The notes under the pieces were generated by a model. That model saw only the letters and a program-made list of their open reading frames with translations. It searched no databases and was not told the DNA's origin. A stretch of 64,000 nucleotides of DNA, from positions 1,426,001 to 1,490,000 of the forward strand of contig NZ_CP043626.1 in assembly GCF_008807415.1 (NCBI RefSeq), given 5' to 3'. Numbering within the stretch: the first letter of the stretch is position 1; each line of letters starts with the position of its first letter. Made by a program: the position numbers and the translations under genes. This DNA comes from Pseudomonas denitrificans (nom. rej.) (GTDB lineage: Bacteria > Pseudomonadota > Gammaproteobacteria > Pseudomonadales > Pseudomonadaceae). Positions 8,054-54,645 of the stretch are shown one piece after another.

Positions 8054-8141
8054 GAGCGGTGCGCTCCGGCGGGCGTTGTCGACACAACGAAATCACTCTA
8101 GCCGCTTTTGTCGAGCCTGCTCAGAACTGCAGGGTGTGGGC

Positions 8142-8906: not shown

Positions 8907-8997
8907 GTCTGGTCCTACGTGCCTTCGTTCGGAGGGGCTCCAGATTACGCCTGTCCGGCGCCACGCTCATCTGCCGGATCGACGCGGTAGCAGCGGC

Positions 8998-9065
8998 GTA
9001 GGGTGCATAACCCGGCACGGGTTATCCGCCGTGGCGGATAACGCCTGGGGCGTTATGCGCCCTAC
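8998..9065. repeat. REPIN-type dyad repeat, copy 1
   Basis: This 68-base element has two hairpin arms facing each other. The outer ends are GTAGGGTGCATAAC and GTTATGCGCCCTAC, and the inner ends are GTTATCCGCC and GGCGGATAAC. It lies between cobF and metE. Two more full copies occur at 33646 and 36898, and related single units occur inside the second NRPS. Confidence 0.85.
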
Positions 9066-9126
9066 GGGGCTGGCGCGGCGTCACCGTAGAGCGGGTCAGG
9101 CAGGATGGGTGGCGCGCCAGGTCGGA

Positions 9127-11424: not shown

Positions 11425-11490
11425 GTGAATCTCTCCATTGAATCAACGATGGGGAAATTCTCCCGGCGCAGCCTTCATGAGACAAACTCA

Positions 11491-11509
11491 ATGTTCTTGT
11501 GATGAACAT
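11491..11509. promoter_or_regulatory. Inverted repeat upstream of metE
   Basis: ATGTTC and GAACAT form a perfect 6-base inverted repeat spaced by 7 bases, 67 bases before the metE start. It sits where a MetR site would be expected but does not clearly match the MetR consensus. The rest of 11425-11598 shows no gene. Confidence 0.25.
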
Positions 11510-11598
11510 AAGAAATTCTCATGTTGATGTGGCTCCTACAGGCCCTGGTCGACCACCGAGTAGATCCTCATGGCGCGCTCCTGCTGGTTGACTCTCGA

Positions 11599-12405
11599 TT
11601 AGCCACCCGCCCGCATTTGCCGCGCCAATGCGCCGGGCGAGGTGTGGAGCTGGCGCTGGAACAGCTCGATGAACGCCGAGGTGGATTCATAGCCCAACTC
11701 GCCGGCAATGAGTGTCACCGACTCGCCGCGTTCCAGCCTCGGCAGGGCCGCCAGCAGGCGTACCCGCTCGCGCCATTCGCGGAACGACAGCCCGGTCTCG
11801 TCGCGGAACAGCCGCGCCAGCGTGCGCCTTGAAGCGCCGACGCGCTGCGCCCAGTCCTCGATGCCCAGGCGCTCGCCGGGGTGCTCCTGCAAGTGATCGG
11901 TGACGCGCCGCAGGCGGGCATCACGCGGCAGCGGCAGGGCCAGGCCGGAGTCCGGCGCGCTGTGCAGTTCGTCCACCAGCACCTGCATGAGTCGCGCTTC
12001 CGGGCCCTCGTCGGGGTAGTCGCGGGAGAATTCGCTGGCGCGCTGGATGAGGTTGTCCAGCAGTGGTGAGATTTCCAGCACGCGGCACGGGCCCAGGCCG
12101 ACGGCCAGTTCCGGGGCCAGGTAGAAGCTGCGGTGGACCACCAGCGTGCGCGCCCGCGCGCTGTGGCGAACGCCCGCTGGCAGCCACATCGCCCGGCGCG
12201 GTGGAATCACGCAGGCGTACTGCTCGGTCGTCGCCTCGAGCACGCCGCTGGCGGCGTACATCAGTTGCCCCCAGGGGTGGGAGTGTGGCTCCACCTCGTG
12301 GCCGGCGGGCATGTCGAAGGCGCGCAGCCACACGGGGCGGGGCAGCGACGTGAAGCCGGGGAGTGCCAAAGCATCCTGTCCCGCTGGCGGCATAGCTTGT
12401 CTCAC
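11599..12405 (-). CDS. AraC-family transcriptional regulator with cupin N-domain
   Basis: This 268-residue protein has a cupin-like sensing domain at about residues 15-100, including [20 protein letters not shown]. The C-terminal double helix-turn-helix has [19 protein letters not shown] in the first HTH and [19 protein letters not shown] in the second. It belongs to the subgroup of AraC regulators with a short RmlC-like ligand domain. It is divergent from the panB homologue, with 73 bases between starts, so autoregulation and control of that gene are plausible. A second Met four residues in could be the true start. Confidence 0.9.
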
Positions 12406-12478
12406 TGTCGGAAGTGGGTCATGGAGGGCCGATGGTAGCGTCTTCCCCGGCCAATATCAGCCATCCGTGGAGAGCACC

Positions 12479-13303
12479 ATGAGCAGCCATCGCCTGCAAC
12501 AACGCCTGTCGATCCTGGACATCCGCCAACGCCGCGAGCCCGGCAGTCTGGTCGTGCTGACCGCCTACTCGGCGCCCATGGCGCAGCTGCTCGACCCGCA
12601 CGTCGATGTGCTGCTGGTAGGGGACTCGCTGGGCATGGTGCTCTACGGTATGCCGCACACCCTGGCCGTCAGCCTCGACATGATGATTGCCCACGGCGCC
12701 GCCGTGGTCCGGGGCTCGCAACGGGCCTGCGTGGTGGTGGACATGCCCTTCGCCAGCTACCAGGCCTCGCCGCAGCAGGCATTCCTCGCCGCCGCGCGGG
12801 TGCTCGCCGAGAGTGGCGCGCAGGCGGTGAAGCTGGAAGGGGGCGCGGAGATGGCCGAGACCATCGCCTTCCTGGTCGAGCGGGGCATTCCGGTGATGGC
12901 GCATATCGGCCTGATGCCGCAGAAGGTCAACGCCCTCGGCGGCTTCAAGGTGCAGGGCAAGGAGGAAGTCGGTGTTGCACAGGTACTGCGCGACGCGGAT
13001 GCCATCGCAGCCGCCGGGGCGTTCAGCGTGGTGCTCGAGGGAGTGCTGGAGCCAGTGGCGCGGCAGGTCTGCGAACGGCTGGAGATCCCGGTGATCGGCA
13101 TCGGCGCTTCACCTGCCTGCGCCGGGCAGGTGCTGGTGACCGAGGACATGCTCGGGCTGTCCGGCGAGCAGATTCCGCGCTTCGCGCAGCAGTACGTGCG
13201 GGTGGACGAACTGATCGGCGCGGCGGCCGAACGCTTTGCCAGCGAGGTGCGCGAGCGCCAGTTCCCGAAGGCGCGGCATTGTTTCGGCATGGAGAAGGAG
13301 TGA
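12479..13303 (+). CDS. panB: 3-methyl-2-oxobutanoate hydroxymethyltransferase (PanB family)
   Basis: This 274-residue protein begins at an ATG following GTGGAGAGC. It contains the PanB landmarks [66 protein letters not shown] and [16 protein letters not shown]. The enzyme adds a hydroxymethyl group from methylene-tetrahydrofolate to 2-oxoisovalerate, the first step to pantothenate. There is no panC beside it and it is paired with a divergent AraC regulator. It could therefore be a second, specially regulated paralogue. The active-site segments (GDS, EGG, GIGA) look intact. Confidence 0.9.
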
Positions 13304-13337
13304 GCCCGGCGCGGGGCCACAAGCAGGGGCATCAAGC

Positions 13338-13384
13338 TGCAGGAGCGGGCCATGCCCGCGATTGCGCGCGTGGCGCGCTCCTAT
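13338..13384. repeat. REP-like palindromic element
   Basis: The short intergenic space after panB holds an element with AGGAGCG at 13341-13347 and its complement CGCTCCT at 13376-13382, and an inner hairpin CGGGC-CAT-GCCCG. It resembles common Pseudomonas REP sequences and lies between convergent genes. Confidence 0.6.
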
Positions 13385-13400
13385 CAGGGAAACTCCGGCG

Positions 13401-15500
13401 CTAGAACCCACTCTCGCGCAATGCCACCGCCAGCAGGCGGGTGAAACCCTCGCCCAGCCAACTGCGCCGGGCGCCCTCGATCTGCAGATGGCCACGGGTT
13501 TCGTGAAGTCCAGGCGGTGCGCTTTCCAGCTTCACCAGCACATGGAACAGCGCAGGGTTGGGCACCAGTGCCTCGCCCTGCGGATTGACGTTCAGCGGGC
13601 CGCCGTAGCGCGAGGCGAGCATCGGATGTTCCAGCTGGCTGATGCGCGTAGTGCCGATCAGCACCACCTGGCCCTCGATGGGACGTGGCACGCCTTCGGG
13701 GTAGAAGCGCACATGACCGCCGTCGGTGAGGCGCTGCACTTCGTCCTGTTTGACGTAGGCGTCCACCAGCCAGTGCTGCGGGTCCACCAGTACGCCGATG
13801 GGCTCGCGGGTGTTGATCCACTGGCCGGGCTTCCAGTCCGGGTTGACGTCCATCCAGCGTCCGCTGAAGGGAGCCTGCAGGTTGAGACGGGCCATCTCGT
13901 TGCGGGCGGCGCGGGCCTGCTGGTACTCCACGCCCAGGCGCTGGCGGGTGACGGCTTCCTCGGAGAGACCGGACGGGTCGGCCAGCATGCCCGCCAACCG
14001 CCCCTGAAAGCCGCGGATGCTCGCCTCGCTGCCGGCCACCTTGGCGGCGATGTCGGGCTCTTCCATCACCGCCAGGGTTTCACCCTTGCCGACTTCGCCG
14101 CCGGGGCGCAGGTCGCGCAGCAGCGCGGGGAATGGCGCGTAGACGTGCAACTGCTGCGCCGAACGCGCTACGCCCATGGCGTGGACCTGGGTGCGCCAGG
14201 GGATGGCGAGCAGCAGAGCGATGGCGCCGATCAGCGCGAGGAACACCAGCTTGCGCCGCGGCTTCACTTCCGCACGGCGCTGCCACCAGACCTTGAGTTC
14301 GCGCCACACGGGCTGAACGATGAACCAGCTGATTTCCACGGCGAACAGGAAGATCCCCAGCAGTTTGAAGAAGAAGTAGTAGACCGCCACGGCGATGCCG
14401 AGGAACAGCAGCAGGCGGTAGACCCAGGTACCGAAGGCAAAGGCCACCAGCAGGCGGCGCTTGCCGATGGGGAAGTGCTCCGGCCAGGGCTCGTCCAGCC
14501 CCAGCAGGTTGCGCCGCAGCGTGGTGCGCGCCAGGGCGCCGGCGCGTTCGTGCAGGTTGGGAAAGTCCAGCAGGTCGGAGAAGATGAAGTAACCATCGAA
14601 GCGCATGAAGGGGCTGGCGTTCAGGGCCAGCGACAGCGCCCAGCTGGTGGTCGCCAGGTACAGCAACCCGTTGCGGAAAGCACCAGGGTCGGCCAGTGCC
14701 CAGCCCAGCGTCGACAGCCCGGCCAGGCCCAGTTCGGTGATGATCCCGGCGCTGGCGATCGCCAGGCGCTGGCGGTTGCTGCGCAGCTTCCAGCTCTCGC
14801 CGGTGTCGGTGTAGAGCATCGGCCACATCACCACGAAGGCGATGCCCATGTGCGCGACCTTCAGGCCCAGCCGCGTGGCCACCAGCGCATGCCCCAGCTC
14901 GTGCAGCGTCTTCGCCACCACCAGCGCAGCGGCGAAGCTGAGCAGGCCCTCGAAGGAGAAGGACTCCACCACGTCGTGGGTGAAGGTGTCCCACTGGTGC
15001 GCCACCAGCACGATGCCGGCGAGGCTGAGCATTAGCACCAGCATCGCTACGTAGCGGTTGAACAGCCAGTCGAGGCTGCCGGCGATGGCGCGCAGGAAGC
15101 GCTGCGGGCGCAGCAGCGGGATACGGAAGAACAGGTAGTGGTGCAGCCACCAGTTCCAGGTGGTCCATTGCTTGCCTTCGCTGCGCGCGGCCAGCCGCGC
15201 CAGTGCCTCGGGGCCGGGGCGCAGCAGCTGGTGGTGTTCGAGGAACTGGCGGAAGCCCAGCACCTGCTCGGCGTCGGGCTTGAGCGCGGTCTGCTCGGCG
15301 ATCTGCTCGCTGATCTGCCGGGGCGTCTGTTCCCAGCGCAGCAGGCATTCGAACTCCAGCCAGCCGATGCGGTAGAAGCGGTTGAGCACGCTGTCCTGGA
15401 TTACCCACACCGGCTCGCCGTCCGGGCCGGGCGCGGCTTCGTCCAGGCGCAGGTCGTCGCGCAGCGGCGGGGTGGGCAGGTCCTCGGCGGCGATGTCCAT
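13401..15500 (-). CDS. M50-type membrane metallopeptidase fused to an HlyD-like adaptor, with PqqD-like N-domain
   Basis: This 699-residue protein is the last gene of the surface-protein operon. Residues ~30-100 resemble a small PqqD-like winged helix (VWVIQDSVLNRFYRIGWLEF). Several membrane helices follow, with the zinc motif HELGH at 200-204 and a second site-2-protease motif NASPFMRFDGY at 294-304 (Asp302). After a later group of helices (about 360-430) the C-terminal third is a periplasmic HlyD/biotinyl-lipoyl-like adaptor (LRDLRPGGEVGKGETLAVME, NLQAPFSGRW). It starts 6 bases after the GAF-HlyD gene. I infer a role in exporting or processing the giant surface protein; whether the peptidase is active is not known. 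Confidence 0.8.
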   Translation of the reverse strand: MDIAAEDLPTPPLRDDLRLDEAAPGPDGEPVWVIQDSVLNRFYRIGWLEFECLLRWEQTPRQISEQIAEQTALKPDAEQVLGFRQFLEHHQLLRPGPEALARLAARSEGKQWTTWNWWLHHYLFFRIPLLRPQRFLRAIAGSLDWLFNRYVAMLVLMLSLAGIVLVAHQWDTFTHDVVESFSFEGLLSFAAALVVAKTLHELGHALVATRLGLKVAHMGIAFVVMWPMLYTDTGESWKLRSNRQRLAIASAGIITELGLAGLSTLGWALADPGAFRNGLLYLATTSWALSLALNASPFMRFDGYFIFSDLLDFPNLHERAGALARTTLRRNLLGLDEPWPEHFPIGKRRLLVAFAFGTWVYRLLLFLGIAVAVYYFFFKLLGIFLFAVEISWFIVQPVWRELKVWWQRRAEVKPRRKLVFLALIGAIALLLAIPWRTQVHAMGVARSAQQLHVYAPFPALLRDLRPGGEVGKGETLAVMEEPDIAAKVAGSEASIRGFQGRLAGMLADPSGLSEEAVTRQRLGVEYQQARAARNEMARLNLQAPFSGRWMDVNPDWKPGQWINTREPIGVLVDPQHWLVDAYVKQDEVQRLTDGGHVRFYPEGVPRPIEGQVVLIGTTRISQLEHPMLASRYGGPLNVNPQGEALVPNPALFHVLVKLESAPPGLHETRGHLQIEGARRSWLGEGFTRLLAVALRESGF

Positions 15501-15506
15501 CGCGCG

Positions 15507-16847
15507 TTACCAGCCGGTCCAGGCGCGCAGGGAGGCCAGCGGCCGGCGCAGCAGGTAGTAGCCGAGCACCACGCGCTCGCCGTAGAGCTTGGCGGTGCCG
15601 TGCAGGCCCAGGCGCGCGTGGGGCGGGGCGTCCTGCACGCTGGCCAGCAGGCGGTAGGAGGCCACGCCCTCATCGCTGGGCTTGGCCTGGTAGCTGGTGT
15701 CGAGGATTTCCCCGTGCAGCGGGTCGAGCGGGTAGGCGGTGAGGAACAGCGCCACGGGTGCCCCCGGCTCCAGCGCGATGGCATCCGCCACCGGCAGCTG
15801 GATGCGCATGCCCGGTGCCTTCGGATCGGCGATCTGCAGGATGCGTTCGCCGGTCACCACCGGCTTGCCCAGCCAGTCGTTGGGGTCGCTGTACACGGCC
15901 ACGCCGGCGCGCGGCGCGAGTACGCGGGTGCGCGCCAGTTGCGCCTGCACGGCGGCCAGTTCGGCGCGGCGCTGGCGGGAGCGGCCGTCGAGCACCGAGA
16001 GTTCGCTCTTGCTCTGCGGGTTGTCGAAGGCGCGCTGGCTGGCGGCCATGAGTTCGGCGTCGGCCACGGCAACTTCCTTGGCCAGCACGTCGGCGCGGCT
16101 GCGCAGGGTGGTTTCGTCCAGCTCGAAGAGCGGCGTGCCGACCTCGACGCTCTGGTTCGGCCGCACCAGCATCCGGACTATCACGCCGTCGATGGGCGAG
16201 CTGATCACCTGGGCGTTGCGCGAGACGACCTCCGCCGGCGCCAGGGCGGTCTGCCGCACCGGGATCAGCAGCAGAGCGGCCAGGGCGATCACCCCGACCA
16301 GCACCTGACGCTTGCTCGGCCGCCAGAAGCGCAGGCGGGTACGCGGGCCGAACGCGGCCCAGGCGTGCGCCCAGGTCTGCCAGATGCCTTGCAGCAGCGG
16401 CTGCAGGTTGCGCGCTGGCGGCTCGTCGAGCAGGAACAGCACCAGCCCCAGGCGCTTGCCGGCACGGTCGTGCAGCGGCACGCACCAGAGCCCGGCCGGC
16501 CACCATTCGCTCCAGCCTTCGGCGATGTCGGCGGGCGGTTCGAGGGCGTCGCGGGCCAGCCAGGTGGGGGGGGCGTCAGGTGTTTGCGTGGCGACCCAGC
16601 GGCTGGCGCGCTCCAGCCAGACCAGATAGGGCGAGTCTTCCGTGGGCTTGGCCAGGCCGGACACCGCCAGCAGCTCGTTGCGCGACTCATGGCAGGCGAA
16701 CACCAGCGCCTGGTGGAAGCGCAGCAGCGGGAACAGGTCGTTGGCGATGCTGAAGGCCAGGGCGCCGAGGGAGTCGGCCGTCAGCGCCTTGTCGCGCACA
16801 TTGGCCAGGCTCAGCAGCAGCTGGGGTGGCGGCAGCAGCTCACTCAT
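15507..16847 (-). CDS. HlyD-family membrane-fusion protein with N-terminal GAF-like domain
   Basis: This 446-residue protein has a cytoplasmic GAF-like region at about residues 15-165, including FPLLRFHQALVFAC and LWCVPLHDRAGKRLGLVLFL. One membrane helix follows near 180-200 (VLVGVIALAALLLIPV). After it comes an HlyD adaptor with a lipoyl half motif VISSPIDGVIVRMLVRPNQS, a coiled-coil hairpin around residues 260-310, and the second half RVLAPRAGVAVYSDP. Adaptors of this family link inner-membrane exporters to TolC. The gene overlaps the preceding adaptor gene by 8 bases and is followed after 6 bases by the M50-HlyD gene. The GAF domain hints at ligand-gated export. Confidence 0.82.
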   Translation of the reverse strand: MSELLPPPQLLLSLANVRDKALTADSLGALAFSIANDLFPLLRFHQALVFACHESRNELLAVSGLAKPTEDSPYLVWLERASRWVATQTPDAPPTWLARDALEPPADIAEGWSEWWPAGLWCVPLHDRAGKRLGLVLFLLDEPPARNLQPLLQGIWQTWAHAWAAFGPRTRLRFWRPSKRQVLVGVIALAALLLIPVRQTALAPAEVVSRNAQVISSPIDGVIVRMLVRPNQSVEVGTPLFELDETTLRSRADVLAKEVAVADAELMAASQRAFDNPQSKSELSVLDGRSRQRRAELAAVQAQLARTRVLAPRAGVAVYSDPNDWLGKPVVTGERILQIADPKAPGMRIQLPVADAIALEPGAPVALFLTAYPLDPLHGEILDTSYQAKPSDEGVASYRLLASVQDAPPHARLGLHGTAKLYGERVVLGYYLLRRPLASLRAWTGW

Positions 16848-17616
16848 GGCTTTCGGGGAAGCGCGCGACCCCGCTCATGCCGGCGATCAGTTCGGGGTAG
16901 CTGGCGTCCAGCTTCGCTTCCAGCTCCACGGTCTGCGCCACGGCGTCGACCCGCGCGTTGATCACGCTGACCTTGGCCGGGTAGTGCTTGCCGGTTTCGT
17001 GGATGTCCACTTCCAGCGGCATGTCCGGACGCAGACTGGGCAGCATGGACGAGGGCACGTTGAGGCGGACCTTCAGCGCGCCATCGCTGACCAGGTCGAA
17101 CAGCGGCGTGCCGGCGGTCACCGTCTGGTAGGGCTTGACGTAGACCTTGGCGATGCGCCCGGAGAAGGGCGCATCGACCAGGCAGTAACCGGCCTGGGCG
17201 CGGGCCAGGGTGAGGGCGCCGTCGGCCTTCTGTACCTCGGTGTTGGCCATGGCGACTTCGAGGTCGCCCACCGCGTCGAGCTTGCGCAGGTTCTGCTTGG
17301 CGGCGAGGTTGGAGCGCGCCATGTTCAGTTCGGCGGCGGCGACCTTGGCGCGGGCGTTGACTTCCACGCAGTTGAGCTGGGCCAGTTCGGCGTCCTTGGC
17401 GACCTTGTCGCCCAGGCTGGCCTTGAGCGCGCCGAGGGTGCCGTTCATCTGCGCGGAGAGGGTGGTTTCCAGGTTGGATACCAGCAGCACGCGGATGGCG
17501 CCGGGGTCCTGGTTGTCGGGCAACGGGGGCAGGCCGCTGGTGGCATCTTCGGCCAGCGCCGGCTGGAGCAACATCAGGCACAACGGGAGGAGCAGGTACG
17601 GCTTACTGCGCGGCAT
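16840..17616 (-). CDS. Periplasmic adaptor (HlyD/RND-type membrane fusion protein)
   Basis: This protein has 258 residues from the ATG at 17616, whose product opens with a signal peptide (MPRSKPYLLLPLCLMLLQPA, cleavage after ALA near 22). It has lipoyl-type halves separated by a short helical hairpin (residues ~60-135), the segment CLVDAPFSGRIAKVYVKPYQ and a beta-barrel domain with SMLPSLRPDMPLEVDIHETG. There is no membrane anchor beyond the signal peptide, so it should be free in the periplasm. It overlaps the upstream TolC-like gene by 14 bases and the downstream GAF-HlyD gene by 8. This tight coupling places it in the same export complex. Confidence 0.85.
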   Translation of the reverse strand: MPRSKPYLLLPLCLMLLQPALAEDATSGLPPLPDNQDPGAIRVLLVSNLETTLSAQMNGTLGALKASLGDKVAKDAELAQLNCVEVNARAKVAAAELNMARSNLAAKQNLRKLDAVGDLEVAMANTEVQKADGALTLARAQAGYCLVDAPFSGRIAKVYVKPYQTVTAGTPLFDLVSDGALKVRLNVPSSMLPSLRPDMPLEVDIHETGKHYPAKVSVINARVDAVAQTVELEAKLDASYPELIAGMSGVARFPESHE

Positions 17617-19192
17617 TGGCGATTTCCTTCTGCCCTGCGGATGCTTGCCCAGCGGTCGGTCGAACGGTTGGTTGCACGGTCGTGGCGCCACTGCTGGCCA
17701 GCAGGTTGGTACTGGTCTGCTGCTCCAGCGTGCGCTGGATTTCCCGCGCCAGGGTCTTCACGTCGTGGTTTTCGATTTCCCTGGGCATCACCTCGAAGCC
17801 CACCGAGTTGTACAGCCGGCCCCAGGCGGCCTGGGCGTCGGAGTAGGCGGCTTCGCGCTGGTAGCGCGAGAGCAGGAAGCGCCCCTCGGCGCGGATCAGC
17901 TCCAGCTCGCTGCCCAGGGCGGCGCCACGGGCGGACTGGGCGTAGCTGAGCAGGCTCTGGTCGACGCGCAGGCTTTCGTCGGCGAATTCCACTTCCTGCT
18001 TCGCCAGCTGGTAGCGCAGCAGGCCGACGCGGACCTGGGTGAGGATGGCCATCGACAGCGCAGTACGGCGCATGTCGTCGGTCTTTTCCTGGCTGGCCTC
18101 GGCGGCCTTGATGTCCGGGTACTGCGCCAGGCGCAGCAGGTTCATCGAGACGTTGATGCCGGTCTGGTTCCAGTCGTTGTTGTACAGGTACTTGTTGGAG
18201 TCGTACTCGTAGCCATAGTTGAAGCTCACGTTGGGCCACAGCTGGGCCTTGGCGATCTTCAGGTCGTTCATGTCGACGCGCTTGCGGTACCACTCCTCCA
18301 TGATTTCCGGGCGGCGCTCCAGTGACAGGCGTTCGAGTTGCTCGACGTTGTTGGTCACCAGTGGCAGCGGCTGTTCGCCGACGTCGGCCAGGACCATTTT
18401 GGTGTTCGGCGGCAGTGACATCAGTGCGGCCAGTTCGGCGCGGGCGAACTCCAGGTCCTGGCGGCGCACGGTGAGCATGTACACCGAGTCGAGCAGGGCG
18501 CGCTGGTAGGCGAGGATGTCCTGGCGCGGCAGCAGGCCCTTGCCCTCGGCCTCGCGGGCGGAGGTCAGCGCGCGGTGGGTGCGCATCAGCAGGCCGTCCA
18601 CTTCCGGCAGCAGGCGCTGGGCGCCCAGCGCGCGCCAGTAAGCGTTGCGCACGTCCTGCAGGACGTTCTGCGCGACCTTCTCGCGGCGCTCTTCGGCCAT
18701 CAGCATCTGGTCGTTCTTCTGCTGGGTGCGGTAGTAGGCGACGCCGAAGTCCAGCAGGCTCCAGGACAGGCCCAGGCTGTAGAGCTGGCGGTAACGCTCT
18801 TCCGAGGTGGACGGACGCAGGCTGACCTGGCGGTCCTCGATGCCGATGGAGGTGCCGCCCGAATCGTTGTTGCGCCCGGCGTAGCCGGCGGAGGCGACCA
18901 CCCGCGGCAGCATCTCGTGGCTGGTGACATCGCGCAGGTCGGAGGCCAGCGCGCTTTCCAGCAGTTTCAGGCGGTAGTCGAGGTTGTATTTCAGGGCGCG
19001 CGCCGAGGCTTCGTAGAAGGTGATCGGCCCGCTGACCGGCTCCTGCTCCTTGTACATCCGCGCCTGGTCGTCGATCACCCGCTGGCGCATTTCCTCCTCG
19101 GTGTAGGGCTTGGGCTCGAACGCCGAGCAGGCGCTGAGGAAGAGGCTGACGGTGATGGTGGCGCTCAGGCATTTCAGTGCGTAGGCAGGCAT
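17603..19192 (-). CDS. TolC-family outer-membrane efflux lipoprotein
   Basis: This protein has about 529 residues from the ATG at 19192, chosen because it follows AAGGA and gives a compact lipoprotein signal with lipobox LSAC (Cys22). An upstream ATG at 19234 overlapping the previous stop is also possible. The body shows the long helical repeats of TolC-type channels, including SARALKYNLDYRLKLLESAL and a repeated second half with LSLERRPEIMEEWYRKRV and IKAAEASQEKTDDMRRTALS. It should form the outer-membrane exit duct for the giant surface protein encoded just upstream. Confidence 0.88.
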   Translation of the reverse strand: MPAYALKCLSATITVSLFLSACSAFEPKPYTEEEMRQRVIDDQARMYKEQEPVSGPITFYEASARALKYNLDYRLKLLESALASDLRDVTSHEMLPRVVASAGYAGRNNDSGGTSIGIEDRQVSLRPSTSEERYRQLYSLGLSWSLLDFGVAYYRTQQKNDQMLMAEERREKVAQNVLQDVRNAYWRALGAQRLLPEVDGLLMRTHRALTSAREAEGKGLLPRQDILAYQRALLDSVYMLTVRRQDLEFARAELAALMSLPPNTKMVLADVGEQPLPLVTNNVEQLERLSLERRPEIMEEWYRKRVDMNDLKIAKAQLWPNVSFNYGYEYDSNKYLYNNDWNQTGINVSMNLLRLAQYPDIKAAEASQEKTDDMRRTALSMAILTQVRVGLLRYQLAKQEVEFADESLRVDQSLLSYAQSARGAALGSELELIRAEGRFLLSRYQREAAYSDAQAAWGRLYNSVGFEVMPREIENHDVKTLAREIQRTLEQQTSTNLLASSGATTVQPTVRPTAGQASAGQKEIANAAQ

Positions 19193-19230
19193 AGTCTGTC
19201 CTTGATCGATCCTAAAGAGTCGCGAGTTCC

Positions 19231-22200
19231 TCATTGGCCGCTCCGGCGCTGGGCGGCCTCGCGCAGCTGGGCGCGGAAGCCCTGGGTGTTCTGCGCCTTG
19301 TCAGCCTTGCCGACCATGTCGGCGGGGAAGGGCGCCCACAGCGACGGGTCGGGCAACAGCCCGTCGGCGCTGAGGCTGATCACGCCGTGGCGGCCGTCCA
19401 CCCAGTTCTTGTCCAGCGTTGCCGCGCGGCGGCTTTCGGCCACGGCGCGGGCGACGAACTGGCCCTTGACCTGGCCCAGCTGCGCGCCCAGCGACGGGCT
19501 CTCGATTTCCGGCGTGGCGAAGATGTCGATGTTGCTGCCGTCGGCGCCCAGTTGGAGAGCGACAGGCGATCGTCGATGCGCTCGACCACCGGCTGCACGA
19601 AGATCGCCGGGTCCACGTCCGGGAGGCGGTCACGCGGGTAGCCGTCGTCGCCGAAGCGGTCGAAATGCGGGCCCGGCGGGATGTACGGCGTGGCGATGTC
19701 CAGGGTAATGGTCAGCACGGCATCGTCGGTGGCGCCGGCCAGGTCGCTGATGGTGTAGGTGAAGTAGTCCTTGAGCACCTGCCCGAGCCCTGCCGCCGCC
19801 AGCACTTCGCGGTTGGTCAGGTCGATGGTGTAGGTGTAGCTGCCGTCCGCGTTGAGGACGAGCGTGCCGTAGCGCCCGGCAATCGGCTGGCCGATCACAC
19901 CAGCAGTACCGCTGCCGGTTTCCTGGCCGGTACGGATACCGGTGACGGTCAGCGAGTCGCCGCCATCCACGTCGCTGTCATTGGGCAGCACGTTGCCGGT
20001 GGCCTGCGGTGCCGGCGTCTGGTCGGTGGCGCTGTTGCTGTCGTCGCGCGCCACCGGATTGTCGTTGGCGCCCTGGATGACCACGGTCAGGCGCGCATCG
20101 GAGGTGGCGCCGGCGTTGTCGCGCATGCGGTAGGTGAAGACTTCCTGCAGCTTCTCGTTGGCGCTGCGCATGGCCTGCACAGTGGGGTTGTCGTTGTCGA
20201 CGCGGTACTCGTAGCTGCCGTCGGCGTTGATCGTCAGTTTGCCGTAGAGACCTTGCAGCACGTTGCCGGCATTGGTCGTGGTGCCGTTCTGGTTGGTGAA
20301 GTTCACCACCGACTTGGTTTCGCCGTACTGCACGCCGTCGACGTCAGTGTCGTTGTCCAGCACGTTGCCGCGCGGGTCGACACCGGGGGTGCCGTTGTTG
20401 ACGCCGCCGGCCTCCACGGCCAGCGCGTTGTCGTCGCTGGCAATCGGCGTGTCGTTGCGCCCGTCGATGGTGATGGTCAGCAGGCCTGGGGTGGCGCCGC
20501 CCCAGATGTCCGCGCCCAGGTAGGTGAACTTGTCCTGCAGGGTCTGGCCGCTGGCGCGCAAGGCTTCGACCTCCGGCAGGGAGTTGTCCAGCTCGTAGCT
20601 CCAGCTGCCGTCGTCGTTGAGCGTCAGGGTGCCGTACTGGCCGCGCAGGCTCTGGCCGGGAGCGCTGGCATCGGGCGGAAGGGGACCGTCGCCGGCCCAG
20701 TACGAGACGACGTGCATCACATCCTGCGGGATGGTGGTGATGGTGTCCGGGTCGGTGTCGTTGTCCAGCACGTTGCCCGATGGGTTGCTGCCCGGCACGT
20801 TGTTGTGCAGGCCGCCGTCTTCGACCGCCGTGCCGAAGTCCGGCGCGGTGTCCGGTGGCTGGTTCTGCCCACGGACCAGGATGATCAGCGTGGCCTGGTC
20901 GTTGAGGCCGCCTTCGTCGGTGACCTGGTAGGTGAAGGATTCCAGGGCGAACGCCAGCGGGCCGAGGGCGATGATGTCCGCGTTGGTGTTGTCGACGAAG
21001 TACTGGTAACTGCCGTCGGCATTGATCACCAGGGTGCCGAACGCGCCGACGATGGTCTGCGGGCTGCCGGGTGTCACCACCACGGTGCCCACCTGCGCAC
21101 CCTCCGGGCCGACCGCGATGGTGGTGACGCGCATGTGATCGCCGGCATCGACATCGGTGTCGGCACCGATGCCGGCGAAGATCCCGGTCAGGCCGGTGAT
21201 CACGTTGCCGGTGGGGTTGCGCCCGCCGCTGCCGTCGAGGTTGGCCACGGCGTAGTTGATGTCGTCGTTGGCCACCGGGGCGTCGTAGCGGCCTTCGATG
21301 GTGATGGTCAGCTGGGCGATGGAAGTGGCGCCAGCGGTGTCATGCATGCGGTAGGTGAAGGCTTCGGTCAGCGAGTCGCCGTTCTTCAGCGCCTGCACGG
21401 CGGCCAGGCTGTCGTTGACGGTGTAGGTATAGGTGCCGTTGGCGTTGAGGGTCAGGGTGCCGTAGGTCCCTGCGATCACGCCGCCGCTGGCGGTCAGGTC
21501 GATCAGCGTGCCGCCGGCGCCTTTGGTGCCAGTGCGCACAGCGTCGACCACATGGGTTTCTCCGTAAGCCGCGCCGTCCACATCCAGATCGTTGGGCAGC
21601 ACATTGCCGGTGGCGGGCGCGCCGGGCGTGGTGTTCTGCGTGCCGCCGCCTCGATGGCGGCCCCCGTGTCGTCTGCAGCGATGGGGGTATCGTTCTGCCC
21701 GTGAATGATGACAGTGAAGGTGCGGGTGACAGTCTTGCCGTTCCCGTCACTGACGCTGTAGGTGAAGACTTCGCTGAGTGTGTCGTTGTAGGTACGCAGC
21801 GACTGCACCGCCGGGTCGAGGTTGTTGACCACGAAACGGTAGCTGCCGTCGGCGTTGAGCAGCAGCACGCCGTAGTTGCCCGCCAGGTCCGCCCCCACGT
21901 TGCCGCTGACGCCGTTGGGGTTGACCACGGCGGTGATGGTCAGGACATCGCCGTCGGGATCGACATAGGAGCCCCGGATACTGCCGGTCGGGTCGAGGCC
22001 TGCGACGTTGTTGAGCAGGCCGCCGGCCTCGGTGGCGTGGATCACGACGGGTTGCACGACGGGCGGGTCATTCACCCCGCGTACGGTGATCACCAGCTGC
22101 GCCTGGTCGGTCAAACCGCCGGTGTCGTGGATGCGGTAGGTGAAGATGACGTCCAGGCTCTGGTTGGCGGTGAGCGCGAGAATGGCAGGATCGGCACTAT

Positions 22201-25200
22201 TGACCACGAAGGTGTAGGTGCCATCGTCGCTCAGGCTGAGCTGGCCGAAGTTGCCGCTGATGAGGGTGCCGTTGGCCAGCCGGGCGACCGTGCCGGTGAT
22301 GTTGGTGGTGACGCCGCTGGCGACGCCGGTCAGAGTCCCGCCGGCGGTCTCAAGGCCGGAGCGAACGCCATCGACCTTGAGCTTGTCGGCGTTGGGCTGG
22401 TCGACAGTGTCGACGTCGGTGTCGGTGCCCACCCCGGCGTTACCGGTGATCACGTTGCCGCTGGCGTTGACCGGTGGCGGGGTGCCGTCGCTGGCGCCAG
22501 CGGTGGCGGTGCCATGGTCGTCCACCGCCACCGGGGCGTCGTTGGCGCCCTGGATGGTGATGGTGAGGGTGGCGATGGCGCTCAGGCCGCCCTTGTCGGT
22601 GACCTGGTAGGTGAACTGCTCGGAGAGCAGGGGATCGTTGGGAGTCAGGGCCTGGACCACGGGATTGCTGTTGTCCACCACGTAGCGATAAGTGCCGTCG
22701 GCGTTGATCGTCAGGGTGCCGTAGAGGCCTACAACAGTGGTCGGCGAGCCGGGGGCGACCGGCAGGATAGCGCCGCCGCCGGTGCCGTCGAAGCGCACCA
22801 GGCTGACGGCCTTGGTCTCGCCATAGACCGTGGCGTCCACATCGCTGTCGTTGGTCAGCACGTTGCCGGTGGCATCGCTGCCGGCGGTGCCGTTATTGGT
22901 GCCGCCGGCCTCGATGGCGGCGCCGGTGTCGTTCAGCGCCACGGGAGTATCGTTGGCGCCGTGGATGTCGATGGTCAGGGAGGTGGAGCTGGAAAGGCCG
23001 CCGGTGTCGGTGATGAAGTAGCCGAACGACTCGCGCAGCACGTCGCCCGCGGTGCGCAGCGCCTGGACTTCGGCATTGCTGTTGTCGACCACATACTGGA
23101 ACCCACCGGTCGCGGTGATGTAGAGCGTGCCGTAGCGGCCGGCGAGGCTGACGACACCGGCAGCGGGGACCACCACGAAGCCGCCGGTGGAGTTCTCCAG
23201 GCGGGTGACCTTGAGGATGTCGCCGTTGGTGGCGATGTCCACGTCGGTGTCGTTGTCCACCACGTTGCCCGTGGGGTCGACGCCGACCGTGGCGTTGTTC
23301 GAGCCGCCGGCTTCGATGGCGATCGCAATGTCGGGACGGGCGATGGGCGCGTCGTTCACCGGGTCGATGACGATGTTCAGGGTGTCGGTGTCTTTCAGGG
23401 CGTCGTCGGGGTTCTCGCCGGGGATGCCGTCGCCGTCCGCGTCACCGAAGTTACCCTGGTCGTTGGTGACCATGGTGAGGGTTTCGGCATTGCGGGCGGT
23501 GTTGAAGTCCTGGTCGCCCTTGTAATAAATCTGGCTGAGCAACACGTTGATCTGCTGCAGTGTGCCGGTGAGCACCAGGGTGCGGCCGGCGCCGGCCGGG
23601 GGGGTATCGTTGGCGCCGGGCGTCGTTGCGCTCTGCCAGAGCACGCCGTGCACCACGCTGAGGGTGACGGTCATGACGCCGGCGGTATTGCCGGCGTTGA
23701 CGTCCACGTCGCTGGTGGCGAGGCCGACGATGTGCAGCACGGTATCTTCCTGGCCATGCTGGTCGGCGACGGCGTTGATCGGCGCTTCGTTGATATGCAC
23801 GTAGCCGGCATCGGCGATGCCGATGGCGCCTTCGGCCAGGTTCAGGTTGATGTTGCCCAGGCCGACGGTGGAGGTCCCGCTGTCGGAGTCGACGCGCACG
23901 TGGAAGCGGTTGTTGCTCGCCTGGGCGAAGTTCTGCGCCACCGCCACCAGGTAATTGCCCGAGGGCAGGATGGCGAACTGGTAGGTGCCATCGGCGGCGG
24001 TCACCGTGCTGAAGGTGCGGTCGTCGGCGTTGCCGAACACGCCGTCGTCGCCGGCCCAGGTCAGGGTCACGTCGATGCCGCCCAGGCCAGGGCCGTCGGG
24101 CGTCGTGCTGGTGGTGGCGGACTTGGTGTCATCCCACAGGGTGCCTTTCACCACGCCCATGCCGGCGCCGTCGCTGAGGATGTAGTTGTTCAGCCCGCCC
24201 GCGCCGTCCTGGCCAGTGCGCTCGCCATCGGCGTCGCCGGCGGTCAGTGGCAGCGAGCCGCCCCAGCCGGCGTTCTCGAAGCTGGTGGGCAGGCTGGTCC
24301 AGGTCAGCACCGCGGAGCTGGTGACGTCGTCGGGAACGATGGTGTTGGGCAGGGTGACGCTGTAGATCACCTGCACCTTGTCGTTGACGTTCAACTGGTC
24401 GAAGTTGAGCACCACTTGGCCGCCCACCACGCTGGCGGTGACGCCCGCTGGCAGGTTGCCGGTGGTGTAGCTGGTGCCGTTGATGACGATGCTCTGGATC
24501 GCGTAGTCGCTGCCATTGGGGAACTGGTCGCGCAGCACGACGTTGTAGGCCGGTACTTCGCCGTTCTGGGTGAAACTGACCGAGACTGTCGCGTTGGTGG
24601 TGCCGGCGACGCTGCCGGCGGCGATGTCGATCACCGACTTATCCATGCCGGTGAAGCTCGGTTCCACGACGTTCTCGAAGATCGTGGCGCTGTGGCCGCG
24701 GTCGACCCCGCCGCCGGTGCCGACGTGTTCGAACACATTCATGCTCAGCTGCGCACCGCTAATGTTTGAGGCGATGTTGGCGACGCGCACGTTGAACTCC
24801 AGGATCACCCCTTCGATATCGCCGTCGTTGATCTCGTTGTTGGTCAGGTTGCCCAGGTTGAAGGTGATGGTCCGGCCGTCCGTGGAAATCTGCAGGCGGT
24901 TGCTGTTGATGTTGAAGATGCCGGTGGGCTTGTCGCCGGACAGGTCGGGATGGATCGGCAGCGATACGTCACTGTTCTGGTTGCCGACCATGCCCAGGGT
25001 GCCGCCGCTGATCAGGTCGGTGGCGTCGGTGGTGAGGCCGCCAATGGCGCTGGAACCCAGGGCGATAAGGATGTTGTTGAGGTCGGCGGGGATGAACTCC
25101 AGCCCGGGAGCCAACTCGATGCGGATCTGGTAATTGGGGTTCAAGCCGGTGGGCACCACGATCGCCACGCGGTAACGTACGATTTCGCCGACCACCACGG

Positions 25201-28200
25201 TTTCTTCCAGCCCAGCGGTATCGGTGGCGCCCGAGGAGTTGGTCGCCGGCGGCGTGGCGTCGAGGCCGCCGACGCGCGAGACCTGGATGCCGTTGGTGAC
25301 GGGAATGAGCAGCGTGTTGATCTGCCGGTAGTCGTTGAGCACCCCGGAGTTGAGCAGTCCGTCGTCGCCGCCGCGCTCGCCGGCACCCGTGTCGGTGGCG
25401 TTGCCCAGGCCGTCCAGGCTGGTCCAGCGCACCACGACGTTGTTCGTGATGACTGCCTGGCCGGCTGCTGAGGCGTTCACCACGCCCGAGAGGGAAATGA
25501 CGATGCTGCCGCCATTGGCGATATCGATGTTGGCGCCGCTGGCGGTGACCAGCTGGCCGTTCTGGATGATGAAGTCCACGCCGCCGTTGTTGGTGGCGCC
25601 GTTGTAGACCTTGCCGGTGATCACGATGTTGTCCATCTGCGTGGGCAGTATGTTCAGCAGGCTGAGATCGAAGGCATTGGTGCCGGAAGTGTTGCTGATG
25701 GTGATGGTGTAGGTGACCGTGTCGCCTTCGTCGAAGCCGCCGTAGGTGGGGGTGGCCGTGACCTGCTGGCTCACCGTCAGGGTCGGCTCGACGATGGTCA
25801 CCGAGGGCTGCTGCGGGCTGGCGACGGTGCGGTCCACTGCCGTGGCGCCGTTGGGGGTATCGCCGTCGGGGTCGCTGTAGGTCAGCTGCGCGCCGTTGTT
25901 CAGGGTGACGCCCTGCTGGTTGCCCTGCACGTTGCTCGCCACCAGCACCAGGCGGATGACGAAGGCGTTGTTGCCGATGTTGTTATCGGCCGTGGAGCCG
26001 GCGGCACTGAACAGCAGGTTCAGGTCGCCGCCATCGCTGCCGTCGCCGCTGAAGGTGAGGACGTTGACAGAGCCGGCGAAGGCCTGGGTGAGTGCGCCGC
26101 TGAACGGATCGATGCCGTTGTTCACGGCGTTGTAGATGATCTGGTAGCCCGCCCCGCTGAAGGCCGTGAGGTCCAGGCGCAGCCCCGGCGGAATCAGGTC
26201 GGAAAGACGCAGGTTGGCGGTACTGCCTTCGGGCAGGGTGACCACGATGTCGTAGGTCATCTTCTCGCCGATCACCAGGTTGCTGCCGCTGGTGTGGCCG
26301 GCGCTGGAGTCGTCGTCGGTGAGGCTGCCGTTCTGGTAGGTCTTGCTGATGGTCGGCGCGGCCACCTGCTGGTTGGCGACCTCGACGATGTCCACCGGGG
26401 TGAAGTCCTGGCCGCCCTCGACGCTGGCGTAGTTGGTCAGCGCCGCGCTGCTTTGCAGGGTGCTGGAGGCGAGGATGGCGTTGCTCACCGTGACGTCGTA
26501 GGTGATCACCACGACGTTGGCGCCGGAGAGGTCGTTGGCCGTGCCGGCGCGGCCGGCGAGCAGGGTGCCCTGGTTGTTGGGGTCGAGGAAGGTGATGCTG
26601 TTGCCGCTGATGCTGTAGTCGACGCCCTGCACCAGCAGGCTGCCGTCGCCACGATGGATCTGCAGGTTGGCGGTGGACAGGCTGCCTCCGACGAACGCCA
26701 GGCCTGCCGGCAGGGTGATGCTGGTGGACACGTCGAAGGCGTTGCCGCCGCCGCTGTTCTTGATCGCCGTGGCCAGGCGCAGGGTGTCGGCGCCGTCGAT
26801 GCCGCTGACGTTGCCATCCACCGCCGCCAGGCTGGTCACGCTGCCGCTGAAGGGCGTGCCGGTGGTGCCCGGCTGGGCCCAGGTGCCGGTGGTGCCGGTG
26901 ACCGTGCCATGGGTGGTGGAGACCACGCCGTGCTTGATGTCCAGCACCGGTTCGGCGACCGATTCGATGACCGCGACATCCGAGGAAATCAGCGGCGTCT
27001 TGTCGATGGTGGTGGTCTGGCTGGACTGCGCCAGCACGTCGAGTTCGCGCTGGTCGGCATAGGGCTGGTCGCCGACCACCATGGTGAAGCGCACCTGCAC
27101 GGTACCGCCGTTGAGGCCGCCGGAAACGTAGTTGCCGAAGTCGAAGATGATCGAGTTGCCCGCCCCGGTGGTGACGCTGTCGGGCACGTCGAGGATGCTG
27201 TTGCCGGCGCCGAAGCTCCACTGGCCGACACCGTTGCCAATGCTCCAGTTGATGCCCGCCGCGTTGAGCAGCGGTAGCGGCAGGTAGGCGGTGAGCTTGA
27301 AGTTCTCGTAGTCCGCCACCAGCAGGTCGTAGGTGATGGTGAAGGTGACCACGTCGCCGGGACGCAACTCGCCGTTGGCAGGCGGGTTGCCGCCGTTCAC
27401 CTGGGTCAGGGTGATATCGATGTTGGAGGTGTCGATGGTGCTGGTGGTGCCGGAGCCGTCGGTCTGCTCGCCGCCAATGTTCAGCGAGTCGCGCAGCACA
27501 GTGGCATCCACCGTTGCATTGTTGCTGACGCTGTCGCCCTCGTTGAGCTGGTCGTGGGGCGGGTGGTCGGAGGTGTAGGTGGTGTCGATGGTCGCGTCGT
27601 AGACGATGGACATCCGCGTGGCGCCTTCCTGCACATCGTCATCCCAGAGGTCGCCGAACAGCGCATAGAGGCCGGGCCCCTGGACGGCGGCAGCGATGGA
27701 TGCGCCGATATCGAAGACCAGCGTGGTGCTGCCGTCGGCGTTCACCGTGGCGGTGTAGATCACCGGGATGACCTGCGATGCGCCGTGTTGCTGGATGACG
27801 ATGCTCGGCGCATTGGCGGCGGAGAAGGTCTGGCCGTCGCTGAGCTGGTCGGTGACGGTGAAGGTGCCCTGGCCGAGGATGTTCTTGCCGAAGGCATAGA
27901 AGTCGGAGATGGCCACATCCATGGTGTAGCGCAGGGTATCGCCGGGGGTAATGCCGGGGTGCCGACGTCGGTCTGCAGGTTCACCGTCTTGAGCAGGGTG
28001 ATCGATTTGGCGACGAAGGTGATACCTGCGCCGTCGCCGGTCACGGTGAAGGGATAACCGTCCGGATCGGTGGGGCGGTCGCGCGGGTCCAGCGGGTTCC
28101 AGTCGCCATTCACCGTGGCGGTGCCGAAGGTGATGGTGCGCGGGTTGCCCGTGGCAGGGTCGAGCACCGGCCGCCCGGCCGCGTCGATCTCCGGTACGTA

Positions 28201-29795
28201 GAAGCCGACCGTGGTGGTGCTGGCCGCGCTCAGGGTGTCGTAGTGAATGGTGTAGCTGGCGACGAAGGCATTGGGGTTGTTGAGCGCCGCGGCGATCAGT
28301 GTCGGGTTGGTCAGTACGGTGCCGTCGTGCAGGGTGATCGAGGTCAGGGTGCCGCCGGCGCCGGGGGTGATGGAGCTGACGTGAACCTGGTCGGGCACCG
28401 TCTGGGTAACCGTCACGTTGGTCAGGGTCTGGCCGGGGCCGGGGTCACTGTCACCGTTTCGGTGCGGGTGAAGTTCGGCCCGGTGACCGTCTCGCCCTCG
28501 GGCATGTTCACCGTCTGGGTCACCGACAGCAGCGTCGGGGTGACCACGAAACTGTGCAGCGCCGCCTCCACCAGGGTCGGGTCCTGCGCCGGGTTGTTCA
28601 GTGAATCGTTGCCGTACTCGAAGCCGCCGCGGGCATTGATGGTGAGATTGGGCGCGCCGTCGGAATAGCTGGTGTCGGCCAGGTTGCTCAGCTGCGCGGT
28701 GACCTGGATGCCGATGGCCGGCTGGCCGCTGGTGACGCTGGCGTAGGGCAGCTGCAGCACCACCATCTGGTCGCCGGCCTTCATGCCGACGCTGGCAGCG
28801 TTGATCACCAGGGCATTGCCGTTGGCGTCCTTGGCCAGCGGGTGGGTGGCATTGCCGTTGGCGTCGAAGGTGATCACATAGCTGGTCACCGCCTGGCCCA
28901 GGTAGGTGGCGGAAACGAAAGTGGCGCCGTCATTGCCGTCGCGGCCGGTGGCCGGCATGAACAGGTCGATGTAGGGCGCGAAGCCGACCTGGGTGGATGG
29001 GTTGCTGAAGTTGACGTCGAAGGTGAAGGTATCGCCCAGGCGCACCGCCGCGCCGCCGCTGCCCATGGCCACGGTGGGGCTGGCGTCGGCCAGCAGGCCC
29101 TGGAAGCTCACCAGGGTGTCGGCGCTCAGTGCGATGGACTTGTCCACGTCGCCCGCGCGCACTTCCAGGTTCCAGTCGCCGCCGGCGCTGGTGGAGCCGG
29201 TGGCATTGCTGGAGGCGCCGACGTCCGCGCCGGTCCAGCGCGCCAGTTCGTTGACCAGCGCCTGACCGGCGCTGCCTGCGCCGACGTCGCAGCCATAGAG
29301 CTGGATGTCCGCACCGGTATTGAGCTCGCCGCGCCAGGCGCTCAGGCGATCGCCGAGCTGGTCGACGCTCTGGCTGGTGAAGGTCTGGTTGCCCAGGGTG
29401 AACTGGCCGGTGGCGCCGTGGGAGAAGATCTGGATCGAGTCGACCTTGCCCAGTTGCGTCAGCGCATTACTGATGGCCGCGATGGCGTCCTGGCCTGCGT
29501 CCACCACCAGCGCGGTGGTGCCCACCGGCAGGCTGGCGGCGAGCTGGTCGCGGTTTTCCAGGCGGGCATCGATCACCACCAGATTGCGCGGCGCCGCCTG
29601 TGCGGGGGCGGCTGCCTGGGCGCGAGCCTCGACGGCAGTGGCCGGCTTGGCCGTGTCCTTCGCCTCGGCGGCGGTGCTGTCGTGATGCTGTTGATCGACG
29701 GCCGCAGCGGCTGCGCCGTCGAACAGGATGCGTTGTTCCAGCGCCAGGGCGTGGGCAACTGGCTGGAAGAGCTTCGAGCGATATTTGGCCTGCAT
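19231..29795 (-). CDS. Giant repetitive surface protein (LEPR-XLL/DUF4347, DUF11-like, SdrB-like and VCBS-like repeats), four apparent frameshifts
   Basis: Restoring one base at each of four sites gives about 3,522 residues. The N-terminus has an LEPR-XLL-type motif (ALEQRILFDGAA) followed by a DUF4347 domain (LVVIDARLENRDQLAASLP ... SIQIFSHGATGQ ... QLYGCDVGAGSAGQ). A long series of DUF11-like beta-sandwich repeats spans roughly 29050-24180. An SdrD B-type domain lies near 24160-23930 (KGTLWDDTKS ... ADGTYQFAILPSGNYLVAV). Nine VCBS/cadherin-like repeats follow to about 19640, and then a roughly 110-residue tail that lacks RTX GGxGxD repeats. There is no Sec signal peptide. Such proteins are cell-surface adhesins exported by type I-like machinery. 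The four export genes follow directly and are co-transcribed. Confidence 0.85.
19550..19563 (-). other. Apparent frameshift near the C-terminus of the giant surface protein
   Basis: The minus-strand frame ending ...DDRLSL continues in the -1 frame as LQLGADGSNIDIFATPEIES. One base lost around TCGCTCTCC would explain it. The new frame runs to the stop that touches the TolC-like gene. Confidence 0.7.
19640..23360 (-). repeat. Nine tandem VCBS/cadherin-like protein repeats, period about 400 bases
   Basis: Within the giant surface gene, units begin with variants of GANDTPVA followed by TGNVLxNDxDVD. They lie near 23350, 22940, 22540, 22070, 21690, 21285, 20870, 20450 and 20060, about 130 residues each. 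The repeats are diverged in DNA, not identical copies, which argues against very recent expansion. Confidence 0.8.
21642..21652 (-). other. Apparent frameshift between two VCBS-like repeats
   Basis: Other repeats read AAIEAGGTNN at this position. Here the frame breaks after AAIEA and resumes as GGTQNTTPG if one C is restored in the minus-strand GAGGCGGCGG. Repeat similarity continues at once on both sides. Confidence 0.8.
27950..27960 (-). other. Apparent frameshift in the DUF11-like region, second site
   Basis: The frame ...NLQTDVGTPG breaks in a CCCCGG run on the minus strand. Adding one G gives GITPGDTLRYTMDVAISDF and rejoins the following 2,100-residue frame. Confidence 0.8.
28434..28444 (-). 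other. Apparent frameshift in the DUF11-like region, first site
   Basis: The minus strand reads CCCCGGCCCCGGCC. One additional G would turn ...VTVTP into GPGQTLTNVTVTQTVPDQV, the correct continuation of the DUF11-like domain. Confidence 0.8.

Positions 29796-41877: not shown

Positions 41878-54644
<12,767 letters not shown>

Positions 54645-54645
<1 letters not shown>

Follow-up and report, generated by a model that had tools for sequence, protein, structure and literature searches.

Type I secretion systems (T1SSs) for large adhesins, such as LapA/LapEBC, BapA and SiiE, export giant repeat-rich proteins without a Sec-like signal, encode a HlyD-type adaptor together with a TolC-type protein, and act on substrates with conserved C-terminal residues. 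These traits recur in the system reported here, a five-gene operon within 64 kb of the forward strand of Pseudomonas denitrificans (nom. rej.) (hereafter the window), whose genome is a single contig of 6.88 Mb (NZ_CP043626.1). A Chem Rev review (PMC8277102) treats tripartite systems with ATP-binding cassette (ABC), resistance-nodulation-division (RND) and major facilitator superfamily (MFS) engines, and describes PCAT/AMS exporters as ABC transporters whose own C39 protease clips the N-terminal leader of the substrate. The most economical reading of our data is leader-guided export independent of T1SS ABCs, with two-step export through a general pump as its main rival. We give even chances to the operon being a leader-guided exporter of giant surface proteins that uses no type I ABC ATPase.

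From 29795 down to 13401 on the minus strand, the operon consists of a giant surface-protein gene, a TolC-type lipoprotein, a HlyD adaptor, a GAF-like/HlyD adaptor and an M50-HlyD fusion. The first-pass annotation had listed these five genes with their order, strand and close spacing, all of which agree with open reading frame (ORF) tables, sequences and Pfam. Neighbouring genes overlap or are at most 6 bases apart, given the starts chosen in our analysis; for instance, the stop of the giant tail occupies 19231-19233 and the TolC ATG 19234-19232. Pfam also returned the domains that had been called (DUF4347, OEP for the TolC protein, HlyD_3, and Peptidase_M50 with HlyD_3), as well as cadherin/Big repeats in the giant, to which NCBIfam added the expected VCBS. 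For the GAF-HlyD adaptor Pfam bears out the HlyD half of the call and leaves the GAF half in doubt: the window protein has no Pfam GAF match, and PF01590 was matched in 5 of 38 aligned proteins. The features are as follows.

19231..29795, minus strand: giant LEPR-XLL/DUF4347/VCBS-cadherin surface-protein gene (ORF tables, Pfam/NCBIfam)
29706..29747, minus strand: N-terminal motif of LEPR-XLL type, LALEQRILFDGAAA, proposed export leader (alignment; NF012209, 16.2 bits, sub-cut-off)
29091..29582, minus strand: DUF4347 domain (PF14252), caspase-like (clan CD) predicted fold with conserved His126 and Cys169
19264..19278, minus strand: C-terminal FxxQ[LIMV] motif (FRAQL), within the tail ORF of the giant gene
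17603..19234, minus strand: TolC-type outer-membrane efflux lipoprotein (PF02321, 131.6 bits; lipobox LSAC read by eye)
16840..17616, minus strand: HlyD/RND-type periplasmic adaptor with signal-like N-terminus (PF13437 and TIGR01730 over cut-off; start picked by eye)
15507..16847, minus strand: GAF-like domain, transmembrane segment and HlyD adaptor (PF13437)
13401..15500, minus strand: fusion of RRE-like domain, M50 site-2-type metalloprotease and HlyD (Pfam, NCBIfam, alignment, profile and fold searches)
15213..15476, minus strand: RRE-like domain (leader-peptide-binding type), fusion residues 9-96 (predicted fold)
14889..14903, minus strand: HExxH zinc motif HELGH, fusion residues 200-204
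14592-14597, minus strand: second zinc motif DG, fusion residues 302-303

The giant protein had been assigned a LEPR-XLL motif. With 16.2 bits the window motif falls just short of the NF012209 cut-off of 17, while the N-termini of all seven relatives tested pass it (17.6-31.8 bits); two of these seven also have weak sub-cut-off matches to Planc_extracel (PF07595). The N-termini of the giants mostly read LALE[PQA]Rx[LM]FDGAA, and L19, E20 and R22 are invariant across 27 aligned LEPR N-termini chosen by hand. A regular expression for the motif, written after inspection, found 74 matches in 2.1 million ORF residues from a set that repeats loci and is enriched in these genes, and 71 of the matches lie within the first 220 residues. 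One match, in locus L034, was discarded as chance because it sits within the M50 protein itself. No Sec-like N-terminus occurs among the 27 LEPR rows, whose hydrophobic maximum is 0.77-1.73, as compared to 1.54-2.52 in four signal-bearing DUF4347 proteins, with overlapping ranges.

We measured the co-occurrence of leader and carrier in 187 genomes sampled by class (completeness of 90% or more and contamination of 5% or less in 185 of them), scoring 6 candidates per genome for M50-HlyD and 5 for the LssB type of T1SS ABC. NF012209 is over cut-off in 26 genomes, 20 of them with an open frame of at least 497 aa. M50-HlyD is present in 18 of these 20 (expected 3.0, P-value = 4e-16, Fisher test) and T1SS ABCs in 10 (expected 7.3, P-value = 0.14). 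The six short matches (open frames of at most 445 aa) had been set apart before this count; none of them occurs with M50-HlyD, which gives 18/26 all together. The window genome, being under the LEPR cut-off, is outside the 20. Overall, neither M50 nor LEPR shows a significant association with T1SS ABCs in the class sample. DUF4347 occurs with M50 in 16 of 21 genomes by rule, or in 17 when counting G144, which was scored M50-negative and has an M50 fragment at a contig end, and it is mildly enriched with T1SS ABCs (13/21, expected 7.6, P-value = 0.011).

The LEPR motif and the M50 carrier go together beyond DUF4347. Four genomes (G077, G149, G183 and G224) have DUF4347 and no M50-HlyD even at a lax threshold, and their DUF4347 proteins are all devoid of the LEPR motif; three have hydrophobic signal-like N-termini and the fourth has the domain near its start. 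The DUF4347 protein of G110 is also signal-like, and this genome holds another LEPR protein (L208). Conversely, G229 is without DUF4347 and its giant carries the LEPR motif beside the whole gene set. The type of leader also follows the type of M50 protein in loci that hold both a leader and a full-length M50 match (the scores of L122 and L137 came from cut-off genes): [FY]D[GA]A leaders pair with M50s of 783-1147 bits (20 loci including the window, 19 of them distinct), and in 4 loci xSAD/xAAD leaders stand with M50s that score 212-294 bits. This link between LEPR-XLL and M50 goes beyond the first-pass annotation, as do the RRE-like domain and the frame breaks described below.

The N-terminal domain of the fusion has a predicted winged-helix fold of the PqqD/RRE type, which we take to be the RRE family, and shares 10-11% sequence identity with the lasso peptide B1 proteins 6jx3, 5v1u and 5v1v. 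Fusion residues 31-392 match NF041824 (daptide HExxH metalloprotease) with 161.4 bits, under the cut-off of 300. The protease portion scores over cut-off for PF02163 (Peptidase_M50) and has the HExxH and downstream D-G of site-2 proteases in a membrane bundle, with intact catalytic residues; H200, E201, H204, D302 and G303 are invariant in 51 fusion sequences. Profile searches matched the fusion to MjS2P (3b4r, E = 0.0011) and RseP (7w6x, E = 0.0012), and the list from the fold search was filled by HlyD rows, so that it scarcely covered the M50 core. The family is large: of 7,997 candidates scored against the M50-HlyD profile, 5,127 proteins (after clustering at 90% identity) reach E <= 1e-20. 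Among the best 120 of the 5,127, source names include 'HlyD family efflux transporter periplasmic adaptor subunit', 'site-2 protease family protein' and 'putative peptide zinc metalloprotease protein'.

The gene set is kept as a unit beyond chance. We scanned contigs once with the M50 protein and retained the best 80 of 86 candidate loci, where M50 is therefore present by construction; their record titles name Gamma-, Beta- and a few Alphaproteobacteria. The order TolC, HlyD, GAF-HlyD, M50, detected with profiles built from the window proteins, is found in 72 of the 80 loci and is contiguous in all 72. Of the other eight loci, three are cut by contig ends (L035, L083 and L084), three are reordered (L076, L078 and L079), L051 has the M50 gene further off, and L065 is taken up below. 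A giant ORF ends right before TolC in 66 of the 67 loci of the 72 that could be tested, with L077 as the exception and five loci beyond contig reach. An alternative order, with a DUF4347 giant after M50, is seen in L073, L076, L078, L079, L095 and L160. At the genome level, DUF4347 is present in 42 of the 50 set-bearing genomes.

As had been claimed for the operon itself, an ABC ATPase is missing: no ABC ATP-binding ORF was found with the ABC profile in the whole window. The operon thus has the HlyD-type adaptor and the TolC-type outer-membrane protein of a type I system, and no dedicated ABC exporter of the LssB, HlyB or PrtD type is encoded with them, as far as the LssB and PrtD models reach (the HlyB model was not run). 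We rejected the idea of a T1SS ABC conserved beside the set, or of a LapB-type ABC consistently adjoining it in relatives, since any ABC ATP-binding ORF occurs in the DNA around only 7 of the 80 loci, at inconsistent positions; L150 is one counter-case. The nearest of these ORFs is 1.1 kb off and ATPase-only. Further counter-cases are L152 and L151, with ABC exporters at a distance of 11-12 kb. The neighbour in L184 was rejected as an ABC transporter because its domains mark it as a protein of ABC-F type. In L151 (G045), positions 11037-16585 hold T1SS-like ABC and HlyD genes, ~12 kb from the M50-DUF4347 set; beside them, two short genes without Pfam matches have membrane-anchored N-termini and look MotB/SiiA-like by eye.

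Genome-wide searches gave a similar picture. The 50 set-bearing genomes, which derive from 50 of the 80 loci and come without completeness figures, were scored with 18 LssB candidates each: in 12 the LssB model matches nothing at E <= 1e-120, and 21 are without a match over its cut-off. A PrtD type over cut-off is present in 4 of the 12 and absent from 8. In the class sample, M50-HlyD occurs in 28 of 187 genomes. Of the 28, 15 lack any match to the LssB model at E <= 1e-110, and a PrtD match at E <= 1e-80 was seen in 0 of these 15 (HlyB model not run). The 15 include two single-contig genomes: G229, with the full set and a LEPR giant, and G093, with a divergent set of HlyD, LEPR giant, GAF-HlyD and M50 and no TolC recognised in 20 kb. 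The count of 15/28 still includes G199, whose M50 match covers 114 profile positions only, and G173 and G222, which are partial at contig ends; moreover, many of the 28 M50 matches are distant (E from 1e-42 to 1e-97), in other gene orders and often with no recognised TolC. The LssB model probably reaches HlyB-like ABCs as well, to judge from its matches of 370-600 bits. The first-pass annotation had offered a distinct secretion route, with the M50 protein in place of the ABC exporter, as one explanation of the operon. The scarcity of ABCs around the loci and the genomes without LssB or PrtD matches support a distinct route that has no T1SS ABC; this support does not extend to M50 as the translocase.

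From these data we propose a mechanism in four steps. In the first, the LEPR-XLL peptide of the giant, which is not Sec-like, would be bound in the cytoplasm by the RRE-like domain, as its fold and the co-occurrence of the two would have it; this step is modelled on RRE domains, which bind the leaders of ribosomally synthesized and post-translationally modified peptides (RiPPs). In the second, the site-2-type metalloprotease would clip the leader at the membrane, near an Ala-rich stretch past the motif, thereby admitting or releasing the substrate. In the third, judging from the protein families, the HlyD part of the fusion, the GAF-like/HlyD protein and the soluble HlyD adaptor would form a periplasmic conduit to the TolC lipoprotein, and the GAF-like/HlyD protein might also act as a cytoplasmic sensor. 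In the fourth, the caspase-like DUF4347 behind the leader may process the giant after export or aid its anchoring. DUF4347 scores 167 bits in the window (cut-off 24.6), and its predicted fold of clan CD together with the conserved His/Cys pair indicates that the family may be cysteine proteases. Driving force and pore might come from the M50 membrane bundle and the proton-motive force, or else from a pump of another kind, such as a general ABC. More tentatively, and somewhat short of an even bet, the system may represent another type of protein exporter in Gram-negative bacteria, in which the inner-membrane part of a tripartite HlyD-TolC conduit is an RRE-M50-HlyD fusion. This fusion would recognise and clip the LEPR-XLL leader, the sorting signal of the pathway, and would need no ABC, RND or MFS engine to move proteins that range from ~3,000 to perhaps over 13,000 residues. 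The longest LEPR-XLL open frames that we observed, in genomes with M50-HlyD, have 13,848 codons (G093:C1:429854) and 12,249 codons (G132:C1:2506229).

Several observations weigh against leader-guided export without a T1SS ABC. Of the 50 set-bearing genomes, 38 do have an LssB-model match at E <= 1e-120. The association of leader and carrier has exceptions: G221 encodes a 7,373-aa LEPR protein (G221:C57:21725) and T1SS ABCs and no M50, G109 has a long LEPR protein and no M50, and DUF4347 is absent from 12 of the 28 M50-positive genomes. LDAAA leaders also accompany an M50, one that scores 300 bits in L184 and one split into two pieces in L214, and in L065 no TolC or HlyD gene is recognisable beside M50. 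The C-terminal motif could be a classical C-terminal signal, as 31 of 38 giants have it within their final 60 aa, compared to 31 of 1189 internal windows; the pattern was drawn up after inspection and the 38 C-termini were chosen by hand. Finally, general ABC exporters (MsbA-like), present in most genomes, could still take part, and ABC exporters do adjoin the set or lie near it in two loci. In L150, the second set of a Rhodocyclaceae metagenome-assembled genome, a 736-aa ABC exporter frame starts 33 bp behind the M50 frame, and in L185 an ABC exporter lies ~3 kb upstream of the set, past a lectin/galactose-oxidase-like gene.

A first alternative, compatible with the others, concerns the window strain alone. 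The gene for the giant had been described as encoding a protein of ~3,520 residues, and the size of the span fits; what failed is the single open frame, as the assembly has four frame pieces (29795-28422, 28444-21503, 21746-19380 and a tail ORF at 19629-19231). Since the gene is broken in the assembly, the strain may not make the giant protein. The genome also holds the system a second time (L095, G000:C1:1345000-1364999), with HlyD, GAF-HlyD, M50, a DUF4347 giant and TolC; this copy is frame-broken in both the M50 and giant genes, so that assembly error and real decay are both possible. In relatives the genes are intact: the closest by M50 protein among the matches kept from the contig scan are Pseudomonas sp. 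21 and P. nitroreducens and allies (96-98% identity), and in Pseudomonas sp. 21 (G001, L149) the giant is whole, a single open frame of 3,517 codons. The operon may thus be inactive here, its giant gene and second copy being decaying pseudogenes, a view to which we give less than even odds: all four carrier genes of the window have open frames, and assembly errors may account for the breaks. The role of the system in relatives would be unaffected. The second copy also has, between M50 and the giant (7855-8685 and 8673-9653), an aspartyl/asparaginyl beta-hydroxylase-like gene (PF05118) and a weak, sub-cut-off sulfotransferase-like gene, which suggest modification of the giant protein.

In a second alternative, export proceeds in two steps: a general ABC exporter or an unrecognised route of Sec/YidC type crosses the inner membrane, and the set only processes the giant and passes it to the surface. 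We know of no M50 protease that acts as a translocase, and sub-cut-off ABC exporter matches to the PrtD model were found in 11 of the 12 genomes searched; L150 and L185 also fit two-step export. We nevertheless consider it unlikely, as the LEPR rows have no Sec-like N-terminus (within overlapping hydrophobicity ranges), the set is not accompanied by any one conserved type of ABC, and the RRE-like leader domain sits on the fusion itself. Least probable is the other option of the first-pass annotation, a T1SS ATPase (LapB/LssB type) borrowed from elsewhere in the genome with M50-HlyD as an accessory, which would suit the four LssB-type ABCs over cut-off in the window genome, the LssB matches over cut-off in 29 of the 50 genomes and the mild enrichment of DUF4347 with T1SS ABCs, and which cannot be general given the 8 of 50 genomes and the 15 of 28 M50-positive ones, G093 and G229 included, without LssB or PrtD matches at our thresholds, and the lack of significant T1SS ABC association of M50 and LEPR.

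Around the operon, an AraC-type regulator and a MetE-type methionine synthase lie on its 3' side, two ORFs upstream have no Pfam match, and an Rfam search of the window returned nothing. Further away, at 41878-59713 on the plus strand, the window holds a three-gene non-ribosomal peptide synthetase cluster (4,255, 1,019 and 672 aa) with condensation, adenylation and carrier domains.

Leader-guided export by this set would link leader recognition of the RiPP type to the secretion of giant surface proteins, and would give the orphan LEPR-XLL motif, annotated without known function, a candidate receptor and carrier within a widespread family mostly annotated as efflux adaptor or peptidase. If independence from ABCs is true, the system is an exception to the rule by which an ABC, RND or MFS engine is required in tripartite conduits. 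In the open-licence literature we found no carrier for LEPR-XLL or Planc_extracel motifs and no publication that describes M50-HlyD as a carrier of giant proteins; others may exist outside it. In that literature few papers contain DUF4347 (4) or LEPR-XLL (2), and one or the other is mentioned in passing as an uncharacterised domain in a type VI secretion effector (PMC8262886), in a stationary-phase protein (PMC12322963) and in a giant Vibrio protein (PMC10868602), and Planc_extracel is listed among signal peptides (PMC10952558).

Compared to the T1SS adhesin systems, the operon has no ABC ATPase, and in many set-bearing genomes neither the LssB nor the PrtD model finds a match at our thresholds. 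The operon also differs in its three HlyD proteins, in an M50 protease that carries an RRE-like domain and in the N-terminal LEPR-XLL motif of the giant. The RiPP metalloproteases of daptide and YydH-LiaK type (NF041824, NF058609) share the M50 protease and a related N-terminal region; here, in contrast, the protease is fused to HlyD and the neighbouring substrate is a giant surface protein rather than a small peptide. Unlike the RRE domains of lasso peptide B1 proteins, the RRE-like domain is embedded in an exporter-like fusion, and its peptide binding is a prediction. Clipping of a leader by an exporter-borne protease, proposed here, is what PCAT/AMS exporters do, with the difference that our candidate is an intramembrane M50-type protease with no ABC encoded alongside. 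Of the LEPR-XLL (NF012209) and Planc_extracel (PF07595) motifs, the former is here tied to M50-HlyD.

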